Shown here: one piece after another, positions 5,720 through 25,416 of the stretch
How positions within the stretch are numbered: the first letter of the stretch is position 1
How the letters are laid out: each line of letters starts with the position of its first letter
Assembly: GCA_018398765.1 (NCBI GenBank)
Contig: JAHBMJ010001786.1
Location: 1 to 25,766 of the forward strand
Source of the DNA: Chromera velia
Lineage: Eukaryota; Sar; Chromeraceae
Reading direction: 5' to 3'
Length of the DNA stretch: 25,766 nt
Notes under the pieces: model-generated
Database searches by the model: none
What the model was told of the DNA's origin: nothing
The model's input: only the letters and a program-made list of their open reading frames with translations
Program-made: the position numbers and the translations under genes

Positions 5720-8353
5720 ATGCGTTTCTTGCTTGGTGCCTTCGCCCTCCTAGCGGGCAGGCACGCATCAGGCGACAGCGTGATGGACTGCGTGCTCCAC
5801 CCGCCGGAGGACGCGAAGGAGTACGAGTCTTGTCCCTCCTTCTACAAGCTCTTTCCAAAAAATGAATCTCAGAAGTTTTCAATGTCACCAGGCCCGAACG
5901 GACAGTACTACGAGAACAAATCGAGCAGAGTGGGTCTGTCACATTTTGAGGACGAGGAGCGAGTGCAGGCTGTGATGTCTGAGAGTGTGAAGGCACAGGA
6001 CAACACGTACATCGCAAAGCTGTTCAGTGACATGAGCGGCATGTGGCTCTTCTCAGACGAGAACGGAGATGCCGTCGGAGCTCACTACACATTCGATCTT
6101 CTGGAGGCCAACCTGCCTCCTGAGGAAATGCACGTCCTCATGCCCTGCAAGAAAACTGCAGTACTGAAGATGGAGTGCAAACGTGAGTCCGGCCATCTGC
6201 ACTATGGACATCTGCACTATGCATGCATGTGTATTAATTGGATTCATTGACCTCTTTGGTGAGTGACTGACCTTGCTGAGCGATCGCGGCTTTGAGGTGG
6301 AATGCTGCTCTCTCTACTTGGAAAGTGCCGTCTATGTGACCCTCCTCCTGGGCTCTTCTTATATACCCTTCCTTCTTTTGTTTGTGTGCCTTTCTTGATG
6401 CGAGTTGACGGGAGGATCTGTAAGGAGTCACACATATGGACCTGACGCCAGCAGGACACTACACGAGAACTTCGTATACTCAAAGTCGAAAACGGTAAAA
6501 CAAGTGTGTGTGATATCATGAGACACATGAATGACAACGCGTGGTTGCAGCCTTTGACTGGTTGCCTCTTCTGGAGGTCGGGTGGAAAGACTCGGCCTGT
6601 ACGTGGACGGGTGTGTGCGAGGAGGAAGCAATGGAGTGCAGAAAAATTACACCGGTAGGTAGGAGGGTCAATGCATGAGGAAAGGGAGTTCGCTGTGTCT
6701 GACTCGCTTCTTCTCTCTACTCTTCTTTGCCGTGCTTCCTCATCTTTTTCAAATTCTGGAGCACCAAGATGCAGGCAAGCAGGCAGGAGTTCCCTTCCGG
6801 ATTCCCTTCGTATCCTCGCTGGCAAGCCTCCTCCTCACTTCCCCTTCCTGCCCCGCTCTCGTGTCAGAAGTGTTCTTGATTTCTCACACCTTTCTGGTTT
6901 TCCGTTCGCGCTCCCTCTGCCCCACCTTGTCCGCATGCAGTACTTCTCCAAGTGCTTGCCTGCCGAGGACTTCAACGAGGATGACACCTTCAAGGGAAAG
7001 CCGCAGAGCCTGAATGGCGCTTCCTCAGAGACGGAGACGGGGAAAGAGGGGGGAGAAAAGAACTCAACAAGCAAGGCGACGTACAAGAAGGTCACGGGAC
7101 CTGAGGCGGTTTGGCCCTGGGACAATTGCTATTTCTCTGGGCAGTGTGCAGTAGAGGGATACCAATGTTTCAAGAACACGAGATGGCCCCTCTTTGCGCA
7201 GTGCATGCCCGCAGAGAGCTGTCCTAGGCCGAGAGGGAAGGACACGCTGAAGTTGCAGGAGGTGTGGGGGGTCGATAAGGCTTCAGATATGACTCCACAG
7301 AAGGTGGGCCGCTATATAGCTGTGTGTTTGTGTGGGAGGGAAGCGGGAGAGAGAGGGAGTGTGTGAGAGAGGGGGTGGGGAAGGTGAAGAGTCATGAGAG
7401 TACTGACCAGTCTTTTTTGCCATCAAGGTCTTCAGTCTGCCTACCTGCTTGCCTGTCTGCTGAGCGATATGACGAGAAGATATGTCTCAAGGCACCAAAT
7501 TCGTTCTTTGAGTGCCAATGAAGACTGATGAGATTGGCTTTTAATCCTGATCGCTCACTTATTCCTCAAGATCTTCGGTTGATCAGAGTGTCTCCGGCAA
7601 TGGGGAATACAGCCTGTAAACGAGAATATTTTTCTCTATTCTCCCCTGCAGATGGTTCGTCGTCTTCTAGAGCACCCTGACAAAACAGGCTACCCCGCCG
7701 AGTGGAGAGGAGAGAACGGAGCCCTGAAGCGCAGGAGGTTGAAGGAGTGCGCAGAGAAGAACAGCGAGGTCGGTTCTCTGGCCTCCGCGAATTTCGCATA
7801 CAAGGCGGAGGACCATGTGAAGGCTGTGCAGTCTGTGTTCTCGAAGTGCGGGGACGAGTACTTTGACTTTGCCAAGGTGGACGAGGTGGAACAGCCTAAG
7901 GTTTTGGATTTGGATCTGTCTGATGTTTTGGACTTGGACAAAATCGATCTGGGGTTCGTCGGTTTGTGGATGAGTGCATGTGCGTGATGAAGCAGAATTT
8001 TTCTTTTATTTGTGTTGATGCGGTGCCGTCTCGGTCTTTGTGTGAATTGGTGCATGGTCTTTTTGAGAAGGTGGTTAGCTCGGGGGCTGTAGTTTTGTAT
8101 GCATCTCCAGCGAGAGATGTTGATCGAGGAGGAAATCTCAACGGAGATGCCCGTGATGTTGAGTTGGGGGAAGCCACAGAGAAAGAGAAACTCAGTCTGC
8201 CATGCCTTTCCCGTTCCTCCATGCCATCAGTTCTTTTTGTCTTTTTGTTTGGTGCAAAATGGCAGCGCTTTGCAGATCGACAAAGGCTTGTGTTCAATGA
8301 GAATGCACAAGGAGAAGTGGAGCAAGACATTCTTACACTGACTTGTTGCCTGC

Positions 8354-8388
<35 letters not shown>

Positions 8389-10833
8389 CCTGTCTGTCTG
8401 TCTGTCTGTCTGTCTGTCTGCCTGTCTGCCTGCCTGCCTGCCTGCCTGCTTGTCTGCAGATGGGACTGGATGGACGAGAAGCTCTACGAGGAGGCTGGAG
8501 GTTCAGAGGGCTGGGACTGTGACAACCCTCTGGGCCCTGAGGCTTCCTCTGACACGGGTGCCTTGAAGAGAGACGAGGCCCGTGTGACTGCATGGAAGAT
8601 GGGATTGGACCCTTGGGAGACTGTGCCTGAGACCAAAACCTCCAGACGGAGACGCCTGCAACAAATTGAGGTGGCCTCAAGCACCTTCAAGGGTCTACAG
8701 GCAACGCAGTACCAGGGAGAAGACACGTACTTTGCAGAGTCGAACCCCGATGTGTATGACCTCCCCCCGCCCCCGAAGGAGAAAGAGTACAGTTACTTCA
8801 AAAAGAAGATGTGCGGAGATGTCCCCTACCACTCATGGGCTCCCGATAAGAATTTGGCTTTCAAGCTCATGTGTGCCCCTCTGTACACCTGGGCCCCCAA
8901 CATCTTGTTGGCCCCCGGCTTCTACTTTGCCCCCAAGTTCACATGGGCCCCGGCCATCACCCTGGCACCTGAGACGATCCTGGCACCCAAGGGGGTCTGG
9001 GCACCTCTCATCCAGACAGGTCGGTTGGTTGGCTGCGTGCGAGCTGGGACAGGAATAGATAGATAACGAATCGTTTGGGGGTATCGGACTGGCTGGCAGA
9101 CAGACGGCCGGTTTTGTTTCCCTTCAAGTGTTCTTAATTCTTTATTTCAATCGTCTTGTTGGGAGACTCTGCAAGTCCATCCATACGTGCTTTGAATAGG
9201 GGGCTCTGACTTATACATCTCCATCCTTCATTCACATTGCACAAAGAAGATTGGAAGCACTACTCATTGAAAGCCTTGATCGATGCATGCACATGCACAC
9301 GCTCGCTACATTTAAATGAGAGTCGCAGGTCCGACAGTTGTGGCCGCCCCCCTGTGGGTATTCGCCCCCAAGATCGTCCTCGGAGGGCAGTTCGTGTTTG
9401 CACCCGAGAACGTGTTTATTCCTTTCATGGTGGCGGGAGTGGAGACGGTCCTCGCACCTCTCAATGTAATTCCAGGTAGGTCTGCCTGCTTGTGACTGCG
9501 CTCGCTTTGGGTCAATTTGCACTTGCTTGCGCATACATCCACATAGATAGAAGCACACACGCACAGAGGAGGGAGGAGGGGAAGATGTCTTTTTCTGAAG
9601 GCTGCAAAATTTCTTTCGGGAAACACAGAAGAAAAAACGTTGTAGAGGGCCTAAGGCACTTTTCTCGCAAGGGGCTGGGGAAATTGATCATTGTAGTAAA
9701 GCGAAAGGGGTACAAGCTTTCCTTTCTTTGGCTGCGACGCCCTGGAACGTCCCAAGACGTGTTTATTTTTTTCACCAACTCACTTCCTGAAGGTCGAAAG
9801 GGTTGAGCAAATACTCATCACCCACCCTTTGCACGAATTTTGTGCAGACATCTTTGCCGACTGGGTGTTCAAGAGGACAGACTTTGGGGAATCCAAAGTA
9901 AAGAGATTCGACGACAAGATCTTCAAAGCATCGGACAAGAAGTTCATCGCAGATAAATTGGACCCCGTCTTCACGTTCATCGAGGAGGTGGACTCAAAGG
10001 TCAGTCGGCTTATTGATTTTTCTGGCTGCATGGCACGTCTGTTTGCTTTCTCTGATTTCTTTCTTGTCAGAAGAGCTTGGAAACAAAGAAAGAGAAAAGA
10101 CCTGCACCTTAGATCACTTTCGAGCGTTGGAAGTCCTTATGAAATCTGATGGCCGCTGAGTGTTTGGAGAGGCCGTCAGTTTGTATTGCATCTCTGAGAG
10201 GAGTCGGAAAAACAACGGAACCATGAATGCAAATCAGCGAACACTTACATTTCTCTTGAACTTTTGTGGCTTTTTGGACGACTCTGAATTCCTGTCCCCG
10301 TCCGGGCACACACATCTTGAATCGAATCCTTTCAGGTTGGGGACGTCCCCCTTCCCCTGCCTCTCAGCGAGGAGAAGGCGAAGAAGATCGGATTGAGAAA
10401 GTCCCTCACTCTCGGTCAGTGGGAGGGGTTCAGGAAGAAAGAGTGCTCTCTCCCTCAGGCCCGATTTAATGGACGTTCTCTTCACTTCGTCTCAATGATT
10501 TTTCTCAGTTGGGTATCCTAGTCGCTTTCCACATTTGTCCTTCTGCCTGCTGTGTGTTTTTTGTTTGCGTTTCCTCTCTCAGCTGTTTGGCTCCTGGACA
10601 TATGATCAGTCTTGCACATTCCGATCTGAACCCTGCAGGTGCATTCTTCTACAGCGCCATTGGCCTGAAGGTAGTCTGCCCCAGGTATCGCGTAGACAAG
10701 GACAAGAAGCCACTGGAGCCCCTCAGCGTGAAGGTGTTCTACTATGAACCTAGGGACACCAGACTGAAGAAGGACGAGGAAGAGAAACTCTCAGACCAGT
10801 GAGTCACATTTTGTGTGGCGGTGTGTGTGTGTG

Positions 10834-10865
<32 letters not shown>

Positions 10866-10894
10866 TGTGTGTGTGTATGCGTATGTGTACGTGT

Positions 10895-10927
<33 letters not shown>

Positions 10928-11023
10928 GTTTAGAGATACAGGTATGACGTGTGTCTATGTGTGCGTTTGTGGCTCTTTCTCTATCTATCTATCCATCTAT
11001 ATCTATCTATCTATCTATCTATA

Positions 11024-11065
<42 letters not shown>

Positions 11066-11802
11066 CTCTATATATATACATACATACATATCCATGTTTC
11101 TCTGCATGTGCGATTAGGTGGGTGGATAGCAGCGTGTGTAAACTCTCTCTTTGTATGTGAGACGGTGTGATGCGGCGCTGTCATGCGGAAGGAAATCTCG
11201 TCGGAAGCCGTTGGGTCTCAGGATGGCTGGTCACCTGTCCCACCCTTGTCCTCATTTCCCCGTGCGCTGAGCAAACCCGCTCAGAACTCTTTTGTGAACT
11301 CTTCAAGATGGTCGAGAAATCGTTGTATGTTTTGCCTCCTTTTGTCCCCTGCAGATGCGTTGTTCCCTATCCCTCTGACGTCCTCCGTGACCTTCCCCAT
11401 CTGCCCAAGGAGGCAATCTATGCCATCAAGGCCTTTGAGATCGCAGAGAATTTGATTCCAAAACCAGTCAAGGTGGCAGCCAACCAGATCCTGACGTTCT
11501 CGACCATCCTGGCTGAGGGCAAGCTGCCTGACGTGCAGAAGTGGCTTGCTGACGTGTTGGAGATCGACGAGAAGGACTTGGAGAAGGAGGACAAAGAGAA
11601 GGACGAAGATCTGAAGGGTATGGGGGCATCTGGGCTTGGTTGGGGTCCTGCTCTCTACCAGTCACAGCACTCTAAGTTTCCCTTGGGGGACTTGGAGAAG
11701 CTGTTCGGGACGAACTCGACGATTCTGGACATGGTCAAGAAGGTGGAGATGCCCTCGATCTCCCCTTGGGAGTATTGGCCTTTCAAGAAGGAGACTCCCT
11801 AG
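5720..11802 (+). CDS. Secreted Cys-rich protein with 18-copy hexapeptide (xAPxxV) repeat
   Basis: Exons: 5720-6182, 6551-6654, 6941-7303, 7652-7953, 8460-9019, 9329-9475, 9848-9999, 10336-10414, 10639-10798 and 11355-11802 (stop TAG). All phases agree, giving about 925 residues. The ATG at 5720 starts a signal peptide (MRFLLGAFALLAGRHASG). Two Cys units share spacing: C171-x5-C-x6-C-x9-C and C252-x5-C-x6-C-x11-C. A basic RRRR patch precedes 18 consecutive hexapeptides (residues 537-644, WAPDKN to LAPLNV). The C-terminal third is Lys/Glu/Asp-rich with few Cys and ends in a Trp/Pro-rich tail. No membrane anchor is obvious. It is probably an exported, wall or matrix protein, but this is inference; the family is not recognised. 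Least certain are the exon 4 donor (7953 with GTTCGT, or 7957 plus an extra exon 8276-8316) and the exon 9 acceptor. Confidence 0.82.
8346..8457 (+). repeat. (TGTC/TGCC)n tetranucleotide tract at a 3' splice site
   Basis: Runs of TGTC, then TGCC, occupy the end of intron 4 and run straight into the acceptor CTTGTCTGCAG before the exon starting at 8460. The repeat serves as the polypyrimidine tract. Confidence 0.92.
8836..9468 (+). repeat. Protein hexapeptide repeat array spanning two exons
   Basis: Ten hexads occupy 8836-9015 (including WAPDKN, CAPLYT, WAPNIL, LAPGFY, FAPKFT and WAPLIQ). One hexad is split by the intron (9016-9019 plus 9329-9342). Seven follow at 9343-9468 (including AAPLWV, FAPKIV, FAPENV and LAPLNV). 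Position 1 is W, L, F or another hydrophobic residue in most copies. Position 2 is nearly always Ala or Gly, position 3 mostly Pro, and position 6 Val in the last eight or so copies. DNA identity between units is low, so the pattern is held at protein level. Confidence 0.9.
10799..11354 (+). repeat. Intron 9 with compound (GT)n-(CTAT)n-(TA)n microsatellite
   Basis: Just after the GTGAGT donor lies a long TG-rich tract (about 10816-10924). It is followed by CTAT tetranucleotides and long TA runs (about 10981-11090). The intron ends at CCCCTGCAG before the exon at 11355. The long TA part could form hairpins and is a likely slippage or assembly hot spot. Confidence 0.9.
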
Positions 11803-12349: not shown

Positions 12350-14440
12350 GTTTAAGTTTGATTGTCTTAATTGCAAATGAATTCAAATAATCAATCAGGG
12401 TCGGCGTGCACTCAATTGCACGACTGATCGACTACATTTTATCAGAAGGTTGTCATGTGCCGGTCGTCTCGTTTAAATCATGCGAAGATGACGTTACCGA
12501 TTGAGGAGCGGCATCGGATCGAAAGCCTCTTGCATGATTGATAGACCACTTCTCTCTATTTCTCTTTCACTGCATTTCCATACAAAAAACAAAAGATATT
12601 ATATTTAACAAAAAATGGGCCCTTTTTTTAATGGGATTCGTTGAACGCTATTTTTTTTCTAATTTTGGCTAAAAATTTGCTTCATTGGACCTCAACTAAG
12701 AATTCAATTTTAAAAAGTGACTGTTTAAGACCTGGAGAGGCTGCGACCAGATAATTGCTATCATTTGTCACATGAACTACTTATAATAACAATTAACCAG
12801 CCGGACCTACTTATGATAACTATAAGACCTAAGCCGTTTTGTAGGCCGGTTTATACATTAATTAGTAATTATAGTAATGGAATGTCTAGCTAGATCTAGA
12901 TCTAGATGGAATGTATCTAGGAATGTATATAAAATTATATATATATTGTATTTGCATATATTTACAATATTTTATAATCTGAAAGAGTCGCCACGCAGTC
13001 GTGGTAGTGTCTACAACTAACTTGTCATATGTTGAACCCAGTGTTGAACTCGAACCAAGTGTTTGAGGACCAGCCAAATCGGGTCAACCAATTGATGCAA
13101 GACCGTTTTGTCTCTATACTAAAGTCCAAACCAAAGTGAGTGATTATACTTTTGGCTAAACAGCCTAGACTTTCGATTATACAATTTAATGATTCATTTA
13201 TAAATATAGTAATCTCAATAATTTTGTAAGAAAGGTTCTGAGAAAGCTTTTAAGTTTATATGATTCTAGAATCTAGATATGACTACTTTTATTATAAAGT
13301 ACAGACCTGTAACTACTAACTACACACTGAATTTTTAATTAAGTATAAACTAGCTCACACTAAAATAAAAAATCATGTAATTAATATTTTTTTTATACGA
13401 TCGACTCTCAAACTTTCTAGAAGACCCTCTTCTAGACCCTCTTTTGGGTTACGTATATATTATGAACGGAAAGATGATATCAACAGTGCAAGTCGAGGCC
13501 CGGGCCGCCCGGCAGTGGGCCGCAGGGTGAATCGGACAGGTGATCCGAAACATAAATCCTATCCTACTATCTTATCCTTCAAAGATAAAAAAAAAAAGAA
13601 TACTAGACCGGCCATCTCTATGGCCATCTTAGAAGGGATGGAAGCAAGAAGACAACTGAGGGAGGGAAGAAGGGAAATCATGGGAAATCGCTAAGAGAAG
13701 AATATGAAAAGAGGGCCGCACGGCGTACACAATGCCAAAAGGTCCTTTCGTCCTATTTTATTGGATCAATTTTTTGAGCAGCCCTTTCTGAGCAGCCCAG
13801 AGATCACAGTATCTAAAGCGCAGACAGATTGTTGTTTGTTAGCGCGGCCTGGGAAACCAGCTAGGCGGACTATGGGGTGTGGTCTGAGCCTCAGCCATGA
13901 GGTACACCCCCCTGCCGTTTGCAGGGGCGACCTCTATAAGACAAAACGGCGATGGTGCTCTTAGCACTACCTACTACTACTAGGCTGCACTGTCTAGAGC
14001 ACTGCTCCTATAGCACTGCTCTAAGGTACTAGCTAGGGCACCACTCAATGACTTAATTACCAGATTTTATATAATTTCAATTAATTAATATTTAGATTAA
14101 TGTGTAACACTGACCTAGTGTGTGACTCAAATTACAAACTGTTTATATATGATTAAACAACAGACTTGATAGACCACGCCTTACATCGCGATCGTAAGAT
14201 AGCTAGAGATGCCTTATCTAGTGCCTTATATGAGCTATAATTATATCATAATTATATATGAATGTAATACTAGGTGCAATTAATAGGCTGAAAGTGACTC
14301 TGTGTGCATTCTATTATAGCATAATGATAACGATGATCACTTTCAACTCAAAGTTTTATTGTTTCAAGACACCAAAGGCAAACATTTTTAGGCAAGGAGC
14401 TGTGCAAAAAGAAGTTTTGCGGCAGCGTGCGCAAAAACGA
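12350..14440. other. AT-rich island of distinct composition, possible mobile-element remnant
   Basis: Sequence changes abruptly from the mixed, repeat-speckled local style to AT-rich DNA with palindromic AGATCTAGATCTAGAT (about 12895-12908), TCTAGA-containing direct repeats (13419-13442) and two short GC-rich cores (13495-13525, 13840-13935). Near-identical CTACTTATAATAAC / CTACTTATGATAAC copies lie at about 12777 and 12807. GCACTGCTC occurs twice near 13999-14020. No long reading frame, transposase motif, terminal repeats or target duplication was identified. It lies between two convergent genes, where an insertion would be tolerated. It could be a decayed transposon, transferred DNA or a misassembly. 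Boundaries are approximate. Confidence 0.45.
13899..13934. other. Strong stem-loop inside the AT-rich island
   Basis: The inner stem pairs CCCCTGC (13909-13915) with GCAGGGG (13921-13927) around a CGTTT loop. The outer stem pairs GAGGT (13899-13903) with ACCTC (13930-13934). It is the most GC-rich structured element in the island. Its role is unknown; it could be part of a transposon end or a small RNA. Confidence 0.45.
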
Positions 14441-17463: not shown

Positions 17464-18785
17464 CAAATGAATATGCAGACGCAGAAAGAGAAGAGAGGGA
17501 AGGATGGACGGCGGAGCACCAGAAAAGAAAAGAAAAGAAAAAAAGAGTGAAACTGAGATCGAGAGGCAGGGAGAGAAAGTGGGCTGGAAGAGATTGAAAT
17601 TCAAACATTTTTCGGGAAGCACCCAGGACTACTACACGACACCCCCCCCCAATTTCCCCGAATCTCACCCTCCTCCATGCATGCACCCCCTCAAAAAACG
17701 CGTCCATCTACGTCCCTTTTCAGCCTCCTAGTTGCCATCCATCGAGGTCCCTTCACAGAAAGAACTCCACAGACATTCAAATCTGGACTGCCTCCCTGGG
17801 CAAAACAAAAAAAGGAACATCATCGAAAGAAATAAACCCAACTGACCGCGAGTGACCAACGCTCCGTGTGTCTGCAGACGAAAGGGGAGAAAGGAAGGAA
17901 GCGAGAGAGAGAAAGGAAATGAGGTGCGCAAAGATACACACACAGAAAAGGAAACGGTAGAGGCAACATGAAAAGACGCAAGCAAGCAAGGAAAAGAAAA
18001 AGGAAGGCGGGAACAAAGAGAGGAGACGAGTGGGGGGAATCAAACACCATCAACCGGTTGAAAGGTCTCTCTTATTGCAGCAGGACAACTGGCCGAAAGA
18101 AGCAAGAAAAGAAAAGGCCAACACAGCGAGGTCAGACGTCTCACAGGAAGACAACCGACCTCTAGGTTCCTCAACATAGTTGCCTGCTGGCTGCAAATAG
18201 GAGGCAGGCGGGTAACCGAAAGACCAGGGGGGGGGGCGGGGGGCTCTCTTGTTTGTGCAAGGCAGGACACTATATTGGAAGCGGCAAGAGGGTAAGTTGG
18301 GAAGTCCGCGAAGAAGAAAGGGGAAAAAGCGAGCGAGAGTTGAATGGCAGATGGAGAGACGCACAATCCGAGAGGGTTGTTTGAACAGAAAGGGAAACCC
18401 AGAGAGCTCTGCCGTGAAATCAGATCTGCATAATTCCTTTGTCCGGCCGACCAGGCATCGAGGGAGGCAGGAGGGGGCCCGCCCTCAGATAGATGAATCA
18501 ATCGGGTGCATGGTGGAAGGAAGGAATCTGAGCTAGATAGAGAAAGACTGAGAATGTTGAAAGAAGAGAATCACTCTCGATTCTTTTCCTGATGCCATGT
18601 CCGTCAGGCAGGCAGGCAGTGGGTGAGTGCGTCACAAGCTAGCTTTGTACACAACGCCTCTATATGCAAGCATAGTTACCGGGCCTTTCCCAATGAAACT
18701 CTCTACTGTCGCTCCTTTCGAAGGCGATCAAACTGAACATATTGCGGCGACCGAAATGCGTACTTTTTTGACCTTGCACACTCAC
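17464..18785 (-). other. Intron-like stretch between the two CCCH coding blocks
   Basis: This stretch of about 1.3 kb is strongly pyrimidine-rich on the minus strand, like the introns around it. It lacks the CpG-rich motifs seen in the two divergent promoters. Possible small exons fit phase: 18190-18145 (coding PAGNYVEEPRGRLSS), 17871-17847 and 17795-17777. Together they would end the upstream gene at a TGA at 17777. None has a recognisable domain, so they stay tentative. A CAGG repeat lies at 18606-18620. Confidence 0.4.
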
Positions 18786-20381
18786 CTTTCCATGGAGCTC
18801 CTGGCGTTCTCTAGATTCCTCCCGGGGGACTCCCAGAGCGTTTACGCCTGTCGGATGCGCCCTCGAAGCACCGTGACCCGAGAGATCACCCCCACCCAGT
18901 GGGACTGCAGAGGTGCCATTGAGCGCCGCCGCTGCCGCAGCAGTAGGCTGTTGAGTGCTTCCTGGGGGTGGGCTTGTTTGGGTGTAGGGAGGCACACTAG
19001 GAATCGGAGACGGGTTACGAGAGGAGGCATTCGCGATATGAGACGGCGGCGCCATCGCAGAGAGACCCGCTTGGTGCGGCGCCGCTAGATTCCATGGTGA
19101 GGGGCTGTCTGGGATGTAGGCGTCATAGTTTGGATGTGGCTGGAGGGTTTGTGGTCTCTCTTGGTAGTGGTCGTAGTAATTGGAAGCCTGGCCTGGAACG
19201 GAATACCCATACTGATACGCAGCGACGGGATCCTCATGCGGTTGCTGGTAGGAAGAGGAAGACTCCAGATGACCGTTTGGTCTCTCTCTGTCTTCCCTGT
19301 CCCTGAGGGCTCTGGGATTGGGTTTGAGCATGGCACGAGTAGGATTGGGATTGGGTCGGTTGGAGTCGGAGCTGATGATTCGAGGGGGTGGGGGGAGCCT
19401 GGAGAGAGAGTGACCTTCGGAGATGTCGTCTTGGTCTCGGAGGTATCTGTCCCCGTCTCCGTCTCCCTCAATTGGTGCCTCTTCAACGTCTCTGCCCTCA
19501 TAAGATGCCCCCCTCTCCTCCTCCCATATGGGAAACCACCACCTGTGGCTGTGCTCCTCTACACCCTGATTCAACACAACACTGGTCAGTTTTTCCATGT
19601 ACTCCAGCACAAAGTTCTTCCGCTCCTTCTGTGCTTTCAGAGGACCGTGGAAGAAGTAACAGTTCCGGTGCTTGCAGGTGTCTGCATGCGAAAGCGGACG
19701 TATACCATTATGAGTGAAAATCAGTATGTTCATACAAACGGGAAAGAAAATAGAGGCAGGAGGCAAAAAGACACACACACACGCACACACACACACACAC
19801 AGAGTGGGGGGGAGGGGGTGTAGGGCGAGAACGGAAGAAGGGGTCCACGAAGGGGCAAGACAAAGCAGAAGGAGGGGATGAGACGCGAGAGCAAAGAGAA
19901 AAACCAAGACACGTGGAATGGAAAAGGGTGGAGAAAGACAATGATCCCTCCCTTGAAGAAAAGAGGAACAAAACTAGCAGGCACCGATCGATGCTGACCG
20001 AATCCGACCCCCGCAAAGCACCCGAGCGAATGAGCGAAGGGACAAAGGTCCCCCTCTCTACACCTCCTCTTAGGACCCCAAAAGTAGAGGCACATGGTCA
20101 TCCGGGAACTCTGCAAGGTTTCCTTGTCATGAGAATATCGGCAGCTCTCACCCCTCGTGCACCTGCGCGCACGTGGAAGTGGACAGTGCCGAAGGGGCAC
20201 AGAGTCAGTGTGCATGTATCTATTTATCAACACACGTACGCATCATTCATCTTTGTGGGGAAAGCAAGGACTGAAAAAGTCGTTGAAGGAAGGGAGTCTC
20301 TAAGCGGGGCCAGGTGAAGAGACTGGAGACTCACAGGGTGCCATCCCTCCTGAACACTTCGCAAGGCTTCTTCCCTGCCAT
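18786..20381 (-). CDS. Triple CCCH zinc-finger protein with disordered tail
   Basis: Exons in transcript order: 20381-20335, 20162-19999 and 19681-18786. They join in phase to give 369 residues ending in frame at a GTGAGT donor, so coding continues downstream. The start is the ATG at 20381 in a GCCATGG context. Three CCCH fingers follow closely, and two are split by introns: C7-x9-C-x5-C-x3-H, then C-x9-C-x5-C-x3-H (ending CREGDLCPFAH), then C-x8-C-x4-C-x3-H (ending CKHRNCYFFH). A short helical, Trp-containing segment comes next. The tail is long and low-complexity, rich in Pro, Ser, Asn, Tyr and Gln, with an Ala run. CCCH arrays of this kind usually bind RNA; the tail looks prion-like or disordered. 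The 3' end is unresolved: the next exon may be 18190-18145 or 16853-16790, both phase 0. If it is the latter, the protein would be about 828 residues. Confidence 0.82.
19771..19800. repeat. (CA)n microsatellite in intron
   Basis: A CA-type tract on the plus strand reads (UG)n in the minus-strand transcript. It lies in the intron that splits the third CCCH finger. Confidence 0.9.
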
Positions 20382-22736: not shown

Positions 22737-24665
22737 TGTGTGTGTGTTTGTGCAGTGACTTCGTGGAGAGGAAGTACAACAGTGGGATCTTCGCTTTTAA
22801 GGTTGGTTGTTTGGTTGGTGTGCTTCGCGTTCCTGCATGGGGTCCTACTCAGGCTTCCTTCCGCTAGGCTTTGAAATTCCTTTTCTTGTGTTCTTTGCCC
22901 TGGCCGCTGAACGCTTCTCTTCAACTGGCTGTGTGGCTCTCTTGGCCTTCTTTTCCTTTCCCTCTCCTCGCCTGTATCTCTTGGAACAGCCTCTCTCTTC
23001 AGAAGAACCTCTGTATACCGATTTTGAGTCTCCTAGTCTCCCTTTTCCATCGCACCCGATTGCCCTCATGCGGAGAACGTGCGTATGTATAGGGAGATGA
23101 GTTTGATCCTGAAGTCCCTGACGCTCTATCTATACCTTCTTTGCATTCTCCGGCCGGTGCCCTTGCTCATACGCATGAGTGCATACATGCAGCTGCAGCC
23201 CCCGAAGTGAGGTTGGCATCCCCGGGGGCCGGGTGGGTACGAGACTCCAGAGTTCCTGGATCGCACGCTGGGGGTACCAATGAGGCAAATGACGGTCCCG
23301 GCAAGTCTGACAGGAGCTGCTGGAGTCTCGATTCTGAGGAATGAAGACGCGACAAAGTTCTCTGGAAAGTCAGTCAGTTGATAACACAAACATCTGATTC
23401 AAGTAATCTGTAAGTCGACATACGTCAACGGATTCATTCGCTTAGCGGAATACTGGATGAGCTAGCTGGATGAGTCAACCTCGGCATACAGATCAGGCAG
23501 TCGACACAGAGATATCCACACACAGTAGCGTGCGCACGCGCACTCTCTCCCAGAGAATTAAGAGAGAGGAAGAGAGAACCAGGCTGAGCAGACCAACTGG
23601 CCGACATGGTTGTGACTGTAATTGAAATGCGCCTTTTCCCCACCCCCAGCACCCTTCTGTACATGTGGAGCTGATGAAATTGATAACGAATGCCGATAGG
23701 TTCAAGAAATTTCAAGAACATTATGATGCATGCATGAGTGGCTGCTTGCAGGACGATCAAAGAGTACAAGGAAGTGGCTGAGAAGTTGGCGAAGGGGACT
23801 GGGAGGGGAGCGGAGGAGAAGAAGAAGAAGAGAGAGAGCGGAGAGATGCCCGTGGAAGAAATCGAGAGGAGTTTCTGGAATTCGGTACGTCGGTCTGTCC
23901 GTCCCCCTTGTTTTTGTCTGCTCATGATAAACCTTCACATCGTCAATTCTTCTCCCCCAGCTTCTCACTGCATTCCATCATTTCGACCAGATTGCTTGTG
24001 AACATTCATGAAGCTTCACGCGCATGCATGAATAGCTGATCAATGCATTTACGTATTTTATCGTTTCTGCTTCTCACAGACAAAGCCCTTTTTCTTATCA
24101 TGCGCATGAAGTAGCCTGCATTCATTCTAGCTATGGTCAATTCCTCTTCTCTCTTTGTCTCCGTGCTGGCCCTAGCTCCAACATGCACGTGCGTGAGCGT
24201 GCAGGCGTCCTTGGTGGGAGCGGCGAGGGACCGTATGCCGATGTACGCGGCAGATGACGGTGGGGGCTCTTTCTTTGACAAGAAGACGTCCCCCTTCTCA
24301 TTCGAGAACATGCCAGGGGATCTCCTGAGGAAGCTTCCCTCTGTGCCTGGGGTAAACACCCCCTATGGCTACGTTGGTCAGTCAGTCAGTCAGCTGTCTC
24401 TTTATGTGAATGTTTAGAAACGAGGGACGTTCTTCTCTCTGTCTCTCTCACTCGAATTCATTCTTTCTTTCTTTCTTTCTTTCTTTCGTTCGTTCGTTCG
24501 TTCGTTCGTTGGTTCGTTCGTTCTTTCTTTCTTTCTTTCTTTTTCTTTCGTTCGTTCTTAAAGTTTCTTTCTTTCTTTTTTTTTTCTTTCTTTCTTTCTT
24601 TCGTTCGTTCGTTTGTTCGTTCTTTCTTTCTTTCTTTCTTTCTTTCTCTTTTTTTTCTTTCTTTT

Positions 24666-24701
<36 letters not shown>

Positions 24702-25416
24702 TCGTTCGTTCGTTCGTACGTTCGTTCTTTCGTTCTTTCTTTCTTTCTTTTCTTTCTTTCCGTCTCCTTCGTTTTTTCGTCTCGTAGTCTCTGCACAGCT
24801 GCCCTCTCTGATGGTTCTGTCCAGTGCCGCCTCTCTTTTTTCCCTTTTGCGTACCCTCGCCAGCTCATTAGATGAATCCTCCCTCGATCGGTCGACCTGG
24901 CTGGTATTGCAGGCATGTGGAGAACCTGCTTTGCGTGGCATAAGGAGGTCAGCCAGAAGGGGGGGTGTCTGTGTCTCAACTGGACTTGACAAAGTGTTTG
25001 GTGATCATTGATCTCTCTTTAATTAATTCTCCTTCGGTTTCTCTCGATCTTTCACTGTTTTTTCATTTACGTGTTTCATTTTGCTTTGTCTGTTGCCTTC
25101 GGTTCTCTGCAGCATCTGCTTTATTGCCACTCTCTCCATCCGATTCTTATTTTTTTCTTTGTCAGCGTCATTCAGCGTCCATTTTGAGGTGCTTTCCTGC
25201 TGAAACCCCGTCATGCAAGAACACATGCATGAAGGAAAATGAGGAATCATTCGCGTCGTTTTCCCTTTGCGGGAGACGGCATGTCCGTGGCTGCATTTGT
25301 TTGAAGGCACCTGCATGAATGTATGTCCTTTCAAATGTGGAAGTGTGAACTGACTATGTGTATGTGCAGGACATGGACCTGCCCTCCGCCAACTATCTGC
25401 ACCATGGCGCGTGCAA
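20959..25416 (+). CDS. KDM4/JHDM3-like JmjN-JmjC histone demethylase (3' end off window)
   Basis: Probable exons: 20959-21139 (or -21132), 21819-21907, 22352-22444, 22756-22801, 23193-23372, 23650-23699, 23752-23884, 24205-24376, 24913-24947 and 25370-25416. From 21819 on the phases agree. JmjN begins at [15 protein letters not shown], continues with [15 protein letters not shown], then LQPPK, an in-frame TGA, and GWHPR. A charged linker includes [11 protein letters not shown] and [10 protein letters not shown]. JmjC shows [10 protein letters not shown], then [22 protein letters not shown] and [16 protein letters not shown] supplies the first two Fe(II) ligands (H-x-E), and NY matches the KDM4 2-oxoglutarate-binding Asn. 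The third His lies beyond the window. The family removes methyl groups from histone H3 lysines using Fe(II) and 2-oxoglutarate. Exon 1 ([11 protein letters not shown]...) is linked less securely: 21139 leaves phase 1, while 21132 fits but uses a weak GTTGAC donor. Confidence 0.83.
21140..21818 (+). other. First intron of the demethylase gene (unresolved)
   Basis: This pyrimidine-rich stretch of about 680 bases separates the first exon from the Ser/Pro-rich second exon. Open frames occur, for example near 21630-21735, but none joins both neighbours in phase. A missed small exon here could explain the phase conflict at exon 1. Confidence 0.45.
21908..22351 (+). other. Intron before the JmjN exon
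   Basis: This stretch of about 440 bases contains a direct duplication: GTTTGGAGGCATCAAGAACA occurs at about 22017 and again near 22060. No exon that fits the phase was seen. Confidence 0.5.
22688..22754 (+). repeat. (TG)n microsatellite at a 3' splice site
   Basis: An interrupted TG run on the sense strand ends in TTTGTGCAG, the acceptor for the JmjN exon at 22756. Confidence 0.93.
23208..23210 (+). other. In-frame TGA within the JmjN motif
   Basis: In the 180-nt exon 23193-23372 (phase 0 at both ends) the frame reads CTG CAG CCC CCG AAG TGA GGT TGG CAT. The reading LQPPK-stop-GWHP matches the JmjN PPK-x-W motif on both sides. The frame is then open for another 54 codons and joins the next exon in phase. 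Confidence 0.65.
24377..24912 (+). repeat. Intron with long (TTTC/TTCG)n tract inside the JmjC coding region
   Basis: Tetranucleotide repeats of TTTC, interrupted by blocks of TTCG, run from about 24462 to 24765, within the intron that splits the JmjC domain between YGYV and GMWR. Phe/Ser-rich and Lys/Glu-rich frames across it come from the repeat and are not proteins. Confidence 0.93.

Follow-up and report, generated by a model that had tools for sequence, protein, structure and literature searches.

A predicted triangular β-solenoid of Ala-Pro hexads in a Chromera velia protein family with signal-like N-termini

Triangular β-solenoids whose coils take up 18 residues each are an established type of fold. 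Left-handed β-helices (LbH) such as those of LpxA, GlmU, γ-carbonic anhydrase, CcmM and NeuO are built of six-residue units, three to a coil, with a hydrophobic residue at position 1 and Ala or Gly at position 2. Bactofilins, which are cytosolic cytoskeletal proteins, are likewise triangular with approximately 18 residues per coil, and their helices are right-handed, as are those of fungal ice-binding protein and SV2. Short repeats rich in Pro and Val are also found in alveolates, in the cytoskeletal alveolins, which have no signal peptide. In an excerpt of one account, the LbH motif is given as [LIV]-[GAED]-X2-[STAV]-X or [LIV]-G-X4, with positions 3 and 6 as X (PMC12081914). Here, we analyzed a window of 25,766 nucleotides of Chromera velia DNA (positions 1 to 25,766 of contig JAHBMJ010001786.1, assembly GCA_018398765.1), in which a multi-exon gene of the + strand (5720-11802) encodes, as one of its domains, an array of 18 hexads marked by Ala-Pro. 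With a probability of roughly 0.55, the 18 hexads form an autonomous six-coil triangular β-solenoid that serves as a rigid, non-catalytic extracellular rod or assembly module. The array, its register, the paralogs and an 18-residue super-period are observed directly, the fold is predicted, and secretion, location and packing role are what we infer for it.

An 18-copy array had been placed at 8836..9468 by a sequence-only reading of this DNA, and its coordinates proved exact. With 9019 joined to 9329, the translation contains 18 consecutive in-frame hexads, 108 amino acids in all (WAPDKN...LAPLNV). Units 1-9 read WAPDKN, LAFKLM, CAPLYT, WAPNIL, LAPGFY, FAPKFT, WAPAIT, LAPETI and LAPKGV, and units 10-18 read WAPLIQ, TGPTVV, AAPLWV, FAPKIV, LGGQFV, FAPENV, FIPFMV, AGVETV and LAPLNV; they are all distinct, and pairwise unit identity averages 0.32. 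The pattern hydrophobic-Ala-Pro-x-x-(Val/Thr) proposed for them stands position by position, with Pro at position 3 in 15 of the 18 units, Ala or Gly at position 2 in 17 and Val or Thr at position 6 in 12, but not as a strict consensus, since x-A-P-x-x-[VT] is satisfied by only eight units. For the phase of Ala/Gly plus Pro, the window array scores 32; over 20000 shuffles of its residues the highest score was 17.

At E 0.001, searches of the organism's own genome assigned family members to 25 contigs, a count that takes in the window; the least secure are C3885 and C1304, each with a single match (3.7e-5 and 6.3e-4). The common plan of the family, some parts of which were sought in a subset of members only, comprises a first domain with four Cys, a five-Cys module, a charged linker, the 18 hexads, and the motifs DIFEDWVF..TDFG, CPRY and CVVPYPSDVLRDLPHLPKEA; this last signature gave 22 matches on 21 contigs, again including the window. 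Some family copies may be assembly duplicates, as C3503 and C3676 are identical across the C-terminal stretch seen and may represent either a recent duplication or uncollapsed assembly copies. In alignment A2 the window is represented by its first array exon only, the second half having been compared separately.

The paralogs bear directly on the intron that interrupts the window array (GTCGGT...CAG). Several of them, C96, C3669, C79, C2193 and C1948 among others, hold the entire array within a single open frame, and the unit number in these uninterrupted paralogs equals the 18 of the spliced window, except for one additional residue in three of them. The 9019/9329 splice is supported by this identity of unit number. 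The eight exons modeled between 6941 and 11802, whose seven introns all have GT...CAG ends, splice into an uninterrupted frame of 736 codons followed by a stop, while an unspliced read past the donor at 9019 meets a stop at 9064-9066. Sequence comparison therefore sustains the earlier proposal that the intron splits a unit without loss of register. C3905, which scores highest of all relatives against both window exons (identity 44% and 55%), has introns at two other points of the array; read by eye, its three pieces again fit a count of 18 units, of which two are interrupted by introns. Intron position is thus variable in the family, whereas unit count is not.

The hexads are further organized in threes, an 18-residue super-period that the sequence-only reading does not mention. 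In the window, every third hexad (1, 4, 7, 10, 13 and 16) starts with W, W, W, W, F and F, respectively, and none of 5000 permutations of unit order reached the three-hexad period. In 14 aligned arrays (the window and 13 paralogs), unit-order permutation gave P=0.0003 for period 3 and P>0.9 for periods 2, 4 and 5, with a weak signal (0.04) for period 6, which is a multiple of 3. The period-3 result was robust to the removal of two near-duplicates (0.0006) or of the window (0.0004), and C96 alone gave 0.006. In the same 14 arrays, Gly is found at position 2 in 50% of the units that stand in the middle of a triplet vs 8% and 13% for the other two. Hydrophobic residues account for 80% and 82% of positions 1 and 5 in the 13 paralogs, and for 50% and 53% of positions 4 and 6. 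These composition and period tests left out L030, whose exon begins within unit 2, and the duplicates L028 and L036; L050, an exon lacking unit 1, was padded, and one extra residue in unit 17 of L008 and L031 was left uncorrected, so that their final units are out of register. The super-period is evidence for an 18-residue coil that does not depend on any structure predictor, and three hexads per coil are well supported.

By the LbH motif, only one of the 18 window units conforms to the first form and one to the second, and 25 of the 233 units of the 13 paralogs conform to each. The near-fixed Pro at position 3 and the Val at position 6 had been taken as conflicts with this motif, a view that was not borne out, both positions being free in it. 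The true departures lie at positions 1, 4 and 5. Position 1 is Leu, Ile or Val in 6 of 18 window units and aromatic in 8; position 5 is Ser, Thr, Ala or Val in 3 and bulky (FWYILM) in 11; and the corner chemistry at position 4, where Gly and Asn are scarce, points to some difference from canonical LbH proteins. The array shares with the latter the six-residue unit, three units per coil, the hydrophobic position 1 and Ala/Gly at position 2, as well as a Pro that LbH proteins permit at position 3. Unlike them, it has this Pro near-fixed, it has no His in the window, and it belongs to a protein that has Cys-rich modules and begins with a signal-like segment. The Pfam model PF00132 (Hexapep) scored over cut-off in none of 15 array sequences, two of which are the window exon halves, while it was positive at 5 other places in the same genome and in 14 of 14 control genomes. 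By its sequence, the array thus lies outside the Hexapep family, yet it would resemble an LbH or a bactofilin-type prism. The Pfam Bactofilin profile had no match in the family proteins scanned. Chain A of PDB entry 5vj4, an uncharacterized protein with VGPExG hexads, has Gly-Pro at positions 2-3 and aligns in register with the array profile, but at a non-significant E of 0.079, and its repeat is near-perfect and polar, with Glu at position 4, Ser or Ala at 5 and Gly at 6. The alveolin/IMC model IMCp (PF12314), which also matched one bacterial control, found 11 places in the C. velia genome, none of them on a contig of the Ala-Pro hexad family, and had no match in the family proteins scanned.

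AlphaFold2 (AF2) predicted for C96, from an 18-row alignment, 18 strands of three residues, one per hexad at positions 4-6. The block means of the predicted local distance difference test (pLDDT) were 85-95 over residues 1-100, and below 50 in much of the C-terminal part. The first array exon of the window (10 hexads, 14 rows) gave the same one-strand-per-hexad pattern with a mean pLDDT of 80. Together with the super-period, these models agree with the regular coil per three hexads for which the sequence-only reading had proposed a structural check. Foldseek found no significant match to either model in the PDB, and in a library of viral structures there was also none (best E 0.03). The 16 chains top-ranked by Foldseek were compared with the C96 model using VIA-align, and 12 were listed. 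Nine of these, γ-carbonic anhydrases and relatives, CcmM and NeuO, superposed on the 18-unit model at 1.9-2.3 Å over 97-112 residues, whereas bactofilin, fungal ice-binding protein and SV2 gave 11.6-12.4 Å, with 11.6 Å for bactofilin. A high Z score together with a root-mean-square deviation of 10-12 Å may be read as a mirror image, because the distance-based Z is blind to hand. The window-exon model behaved in the opposite way among the 50 matches listed for it: it fitted bactofilins (6ria, 6rib and 2n3d) at 2.0 Å over 63-65 residues, ice-binding proteins at 1.8-2.5 Å and SV2 at 2.2-2.5 Å, while left-handed enzymes had the five top Z scores (7.0-8.1) yet deviated by 10.2-10.7 Å. The predicted hand thus differs between the two models, left for the full array of C96 and right for the 10-unit window exon.

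Several observations weigh against the proposed reading. Gly or Asn occupies position 4 in only 2 of 18 window units and 14 of 233 units of the 13 paralogs vs 27 of 60 E. coli LbH hexads, which had been selected for their residues at positions 1, 2 and 5 and are a fair yardstick only for positions 3, 4 and 6. There is no sign that the coils are tuned to a constant core volume (standard deviation of 96.9 against a null mean of 102.3, with 18% of nulls as low), and the in/out pattern is blurrier in the window, where position 6 is hydrophobic in 72% of units and position 5 in 67%. AF2 can also generate unrealistic β-solenoids, a bias that may matter only for near-perfect repeats, a point left open by its authors in the portion of the study available (PMC11795689). 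The scarcity of Gly and Asn at position 4, like the fit of the window-exon model to bactofilins and ice-binding proteins, would suit a right-handed, bactofilin-like triangular solenoid of three hexads per coil, in which the Ala-Pro corner does without a Gly/Asn turn residue. We regard this as unlikely, given that the window-exon model covers a mere 10-unit fragment at lower pLDDT. The model of C96 spans the whole domain with higher confidence and is left-handed, and Gly-Pro at positions 2-3 occurs in true LbH hexads, including those of hexapeptide proteins of this genome. For these two reasons the left hand is, in our judgment, considerably the more probable one if the array is a solenoid.

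The AF2 bias could further mean that the fold is invented and that the array is a flexible Ala-Pro-rich linker of elastin-like or polyproline-like character, and it is indeed a low-complexity Ala-Pro-Lys stretch that the array profile matches best among PDB sequences (E 0.0042). Such a linker is improbable, as it leaves unexplained the constant unit number in diverged paralogs, the super-period and the hydrophobic positions 1 and 5 of the 13 paralogs. The bias itself is less applicable to repeats so far from perfect as those of the window, and the fixed unit number and the super-period support the fold without recourse to AF2. The best structural neighbors of the C96 model being γ-carbonic anhydrases, a catalytic LbH, namely a secreted relative of these enzymes or of hexapeptide acyltransferases, also deserves consideration. 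The zinc site of γ-carbonic anhydrases and the active site of the acyltransferases need His, so its absence from the window array argues against either site; 9 of 13 paralog arrays counted have no His as well, and a catalytic function appears extremely improbable. Hardly less improbable is a solenoid that binds ice or crystals through one flat outward face. The share of window units with Val, Ile or Thr at position 6 (72%) and the presence of ice-binding proteins among the neighbors of the window model would be in keeping with it, but none of the 18 window units combines Thr at position 4 with Thr at position 6, and the outward positions diverge widely between paralogs.

In the rigid solenoid that we favor, the array would make six coils of three hexads (18 residues) each; every hexad would supply a short strand, and Ala/Gly-Pro would turn the corner from one strand to the next. 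The analogy of other hexapeptide helices suggests that hexad residues 1 and 5 point inward and build a hydrophobic core of bulky side chains, one edge of which would be lined by the stacked aromatics of units 1, 4, 7, 10, 13 and 16, and that residues 4 and 6 point outward; the hand would more likely be left, as in γ-carbonic anhydrase and the hexapeptide acyltransferases. The domain follows the Cys-rich modules of the N-terminal part and precedes a conserved C-terminal one. It could serve an extracellular coat or matrix as a stiff, non-catalytic rod or assembly module, and its flat and partly hydrophobic faces may pack with each other or with partners. The putative outward residues are very hydrophobic in C72 and C3669, while 10 of 36 are charged in C79 and 8 of 36 in the window; such strong variation between paralogs would be natural for modules whose packing partners differ. 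The signal-like start, the Cys-rich modules and the lineage expansion make a rigid structural or adhesive extracellular role the most likely one. A broader proposal, possible but doubtful, is that the Ala-Pro hexad represents a further sequence solution for the triangular 18-residue β-solenoid, an alveolate invention in approximately two dozen secreted proteins in which Ala/Gly-Pro corners would replace Gly/Asn turns, with a bulky core edged by stacked aromatics and a hand that the known rules do not dictate.

The features of the gene are collected in Table 1. The stretch MRFLLGAFALLAGRHASG, with which the first exon begins, looks by eye like a signal peptide. Matches to this exon occur at 10 more places in the same genome, spread over 9 other contigs, and in its alignment (A3) Cys 24, 38, 143 and 153 are invariant. 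A CTGT microsatellite of approximately 27 copies (8350-8456) lies inside the intron 7954-8459, directly upstream of the array exon. Two family members, L035 (C3391, 1510-3327) and L037 (C3869, 1474-3294), have long tails of spaced cysteines beyond the C-terminal signature; L037, the one of the two that was scanned, had no Pfam match over cut-off.

Table 1. Coordinates of the Ala-Pro hexad array and of the gene that encodes it, in window positions
Feature	Position	Strand	Basis
First coding exon, signal-like N-terminus MRFLLGAFALLAGRHASG, four-cysteine domain common to paralogs	5720..6182	+	translation
Possible further small exon, borders provisional	near 6415-6507	+	open frames, GT/AG ends by eye
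Provisional small Cys-containing exon, borders provisional	6551..6654	+	open frames, GT/AG ends by eye
Exon with conserved five-cysteine module C.....C.VEG.QCF.N......A.C.....CP	6941..7303	+	
Charged linker exon	7652..7953	+	spliced open frame
Exon with GGSEGW.CD.PLG motif, Arg-rich and Pro-rich stretches, one Cys, hexads 1-10 and first residue of hexad 11	8460..9019	+	
Hexad array	8836-9019 + 9329-9468	+	spliced translation
Phase-1 intron within Gly codon of hexad 11	9020..9328	+	uninterrupted paralogs
Exon completing hexad 11, then hexads 12-18 (array end 9468)	9329..9475	+	
Three exons (9848-9999, 10336-10414, 10639-10798) with DIFADWVFKRTDFG..KVKRFDD and CPRY motifs, post-array in paralogs too	9848..10798	+	
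Last exon, family signature CVVPYPSDVLRDLPHLPKEA...N..L and stop codon	11355..11802	+	alignment A5

The array had also been suggested to be an undescribed repeat class, which holds in that it is absent from the Pfam and NCBIfam libraries, but not for its probable shape, the triangular solenoid of 18 residues per coil being already known. Pfam gave no match over cut-off for the first exon or the five-Cys module, nor for the array or the C-terminus, and NCBIfam, searched with the array and the C-terminus only, gave a best E of 0.19. PDB sequence searches yielded nothing at E<=0.001; their best values were 0.0042 (the Ala-Pro-Lys stretch), 0.0093, which corresponds to designed helical proteins matching the C-terminus, 0.012 and 0.59. 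An SRS/SAG surface antigen (PF04092) was rejected for the first exon (14.5 bits vs a cut-off of 21, E 0.061, one of 8 members), and a genome-wide search for PF04092, run without a positive control, found none. For the Cys-rich exon, an EB module (E 0.073, one of 8 members) was likewise rejected, and a suspected likeness to CBM1 cellulose-binding modules found no support in the PDB sequence or Pfam searches. In collections that are not eukaryotic, and hence of little bearing on other alveolates, none of 46 pattern matches of the C-terminal alignment in genome_contigs was confirmed, nor were any of its 17 in viral_contigs or any of the 10 of the window array exon in viral_contigs. The literature gave no recognized description of an Ala-Pro hexad repeat for the terms searched, and the family is not among the amplified families in the part of the Chromera genome paper available (PMC4501334).

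Some further observations concern the rest of the window and genome. A Pfam search at E<=0.01 matched none of ten further open frames in the window (18660-19907 and nine others). G+C content between 12500 and 14400 is below that of the surroundings (0.33 at 12501-13500), possibly a mobile-element remnant, and a TTCT repeat of approximately 77 copies (24457-24760) lies near the right end. Elsewhere, contig C1659 carries a MACPF match with WSC matches some 15 kb away, perhaps in a separate gene, which is reminiscent of the MACPF-WSC proteins that Chromera is reported to have (PMC4501334). WSC has 65 matches in the genome, many in long domain runs on C253, C3440, C3534 and C1743.

Hexapeptide β-helices are recognized by a motif with small core residues, and standard hexapeptide models miss the Ala-Pro family, which seems to retain the three-hexad coil with a different corner and core. 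The family is thereby a testable case for what determines the hand of a triangular β-helix. It is also a previously unlisted protein family with a signal-like N-terminus, present on 25 contigs of an alveolate genome. Chromerids being close free-living relatives of the apicomplexan parasites, their extracellular proteins are of evolutionary interest.
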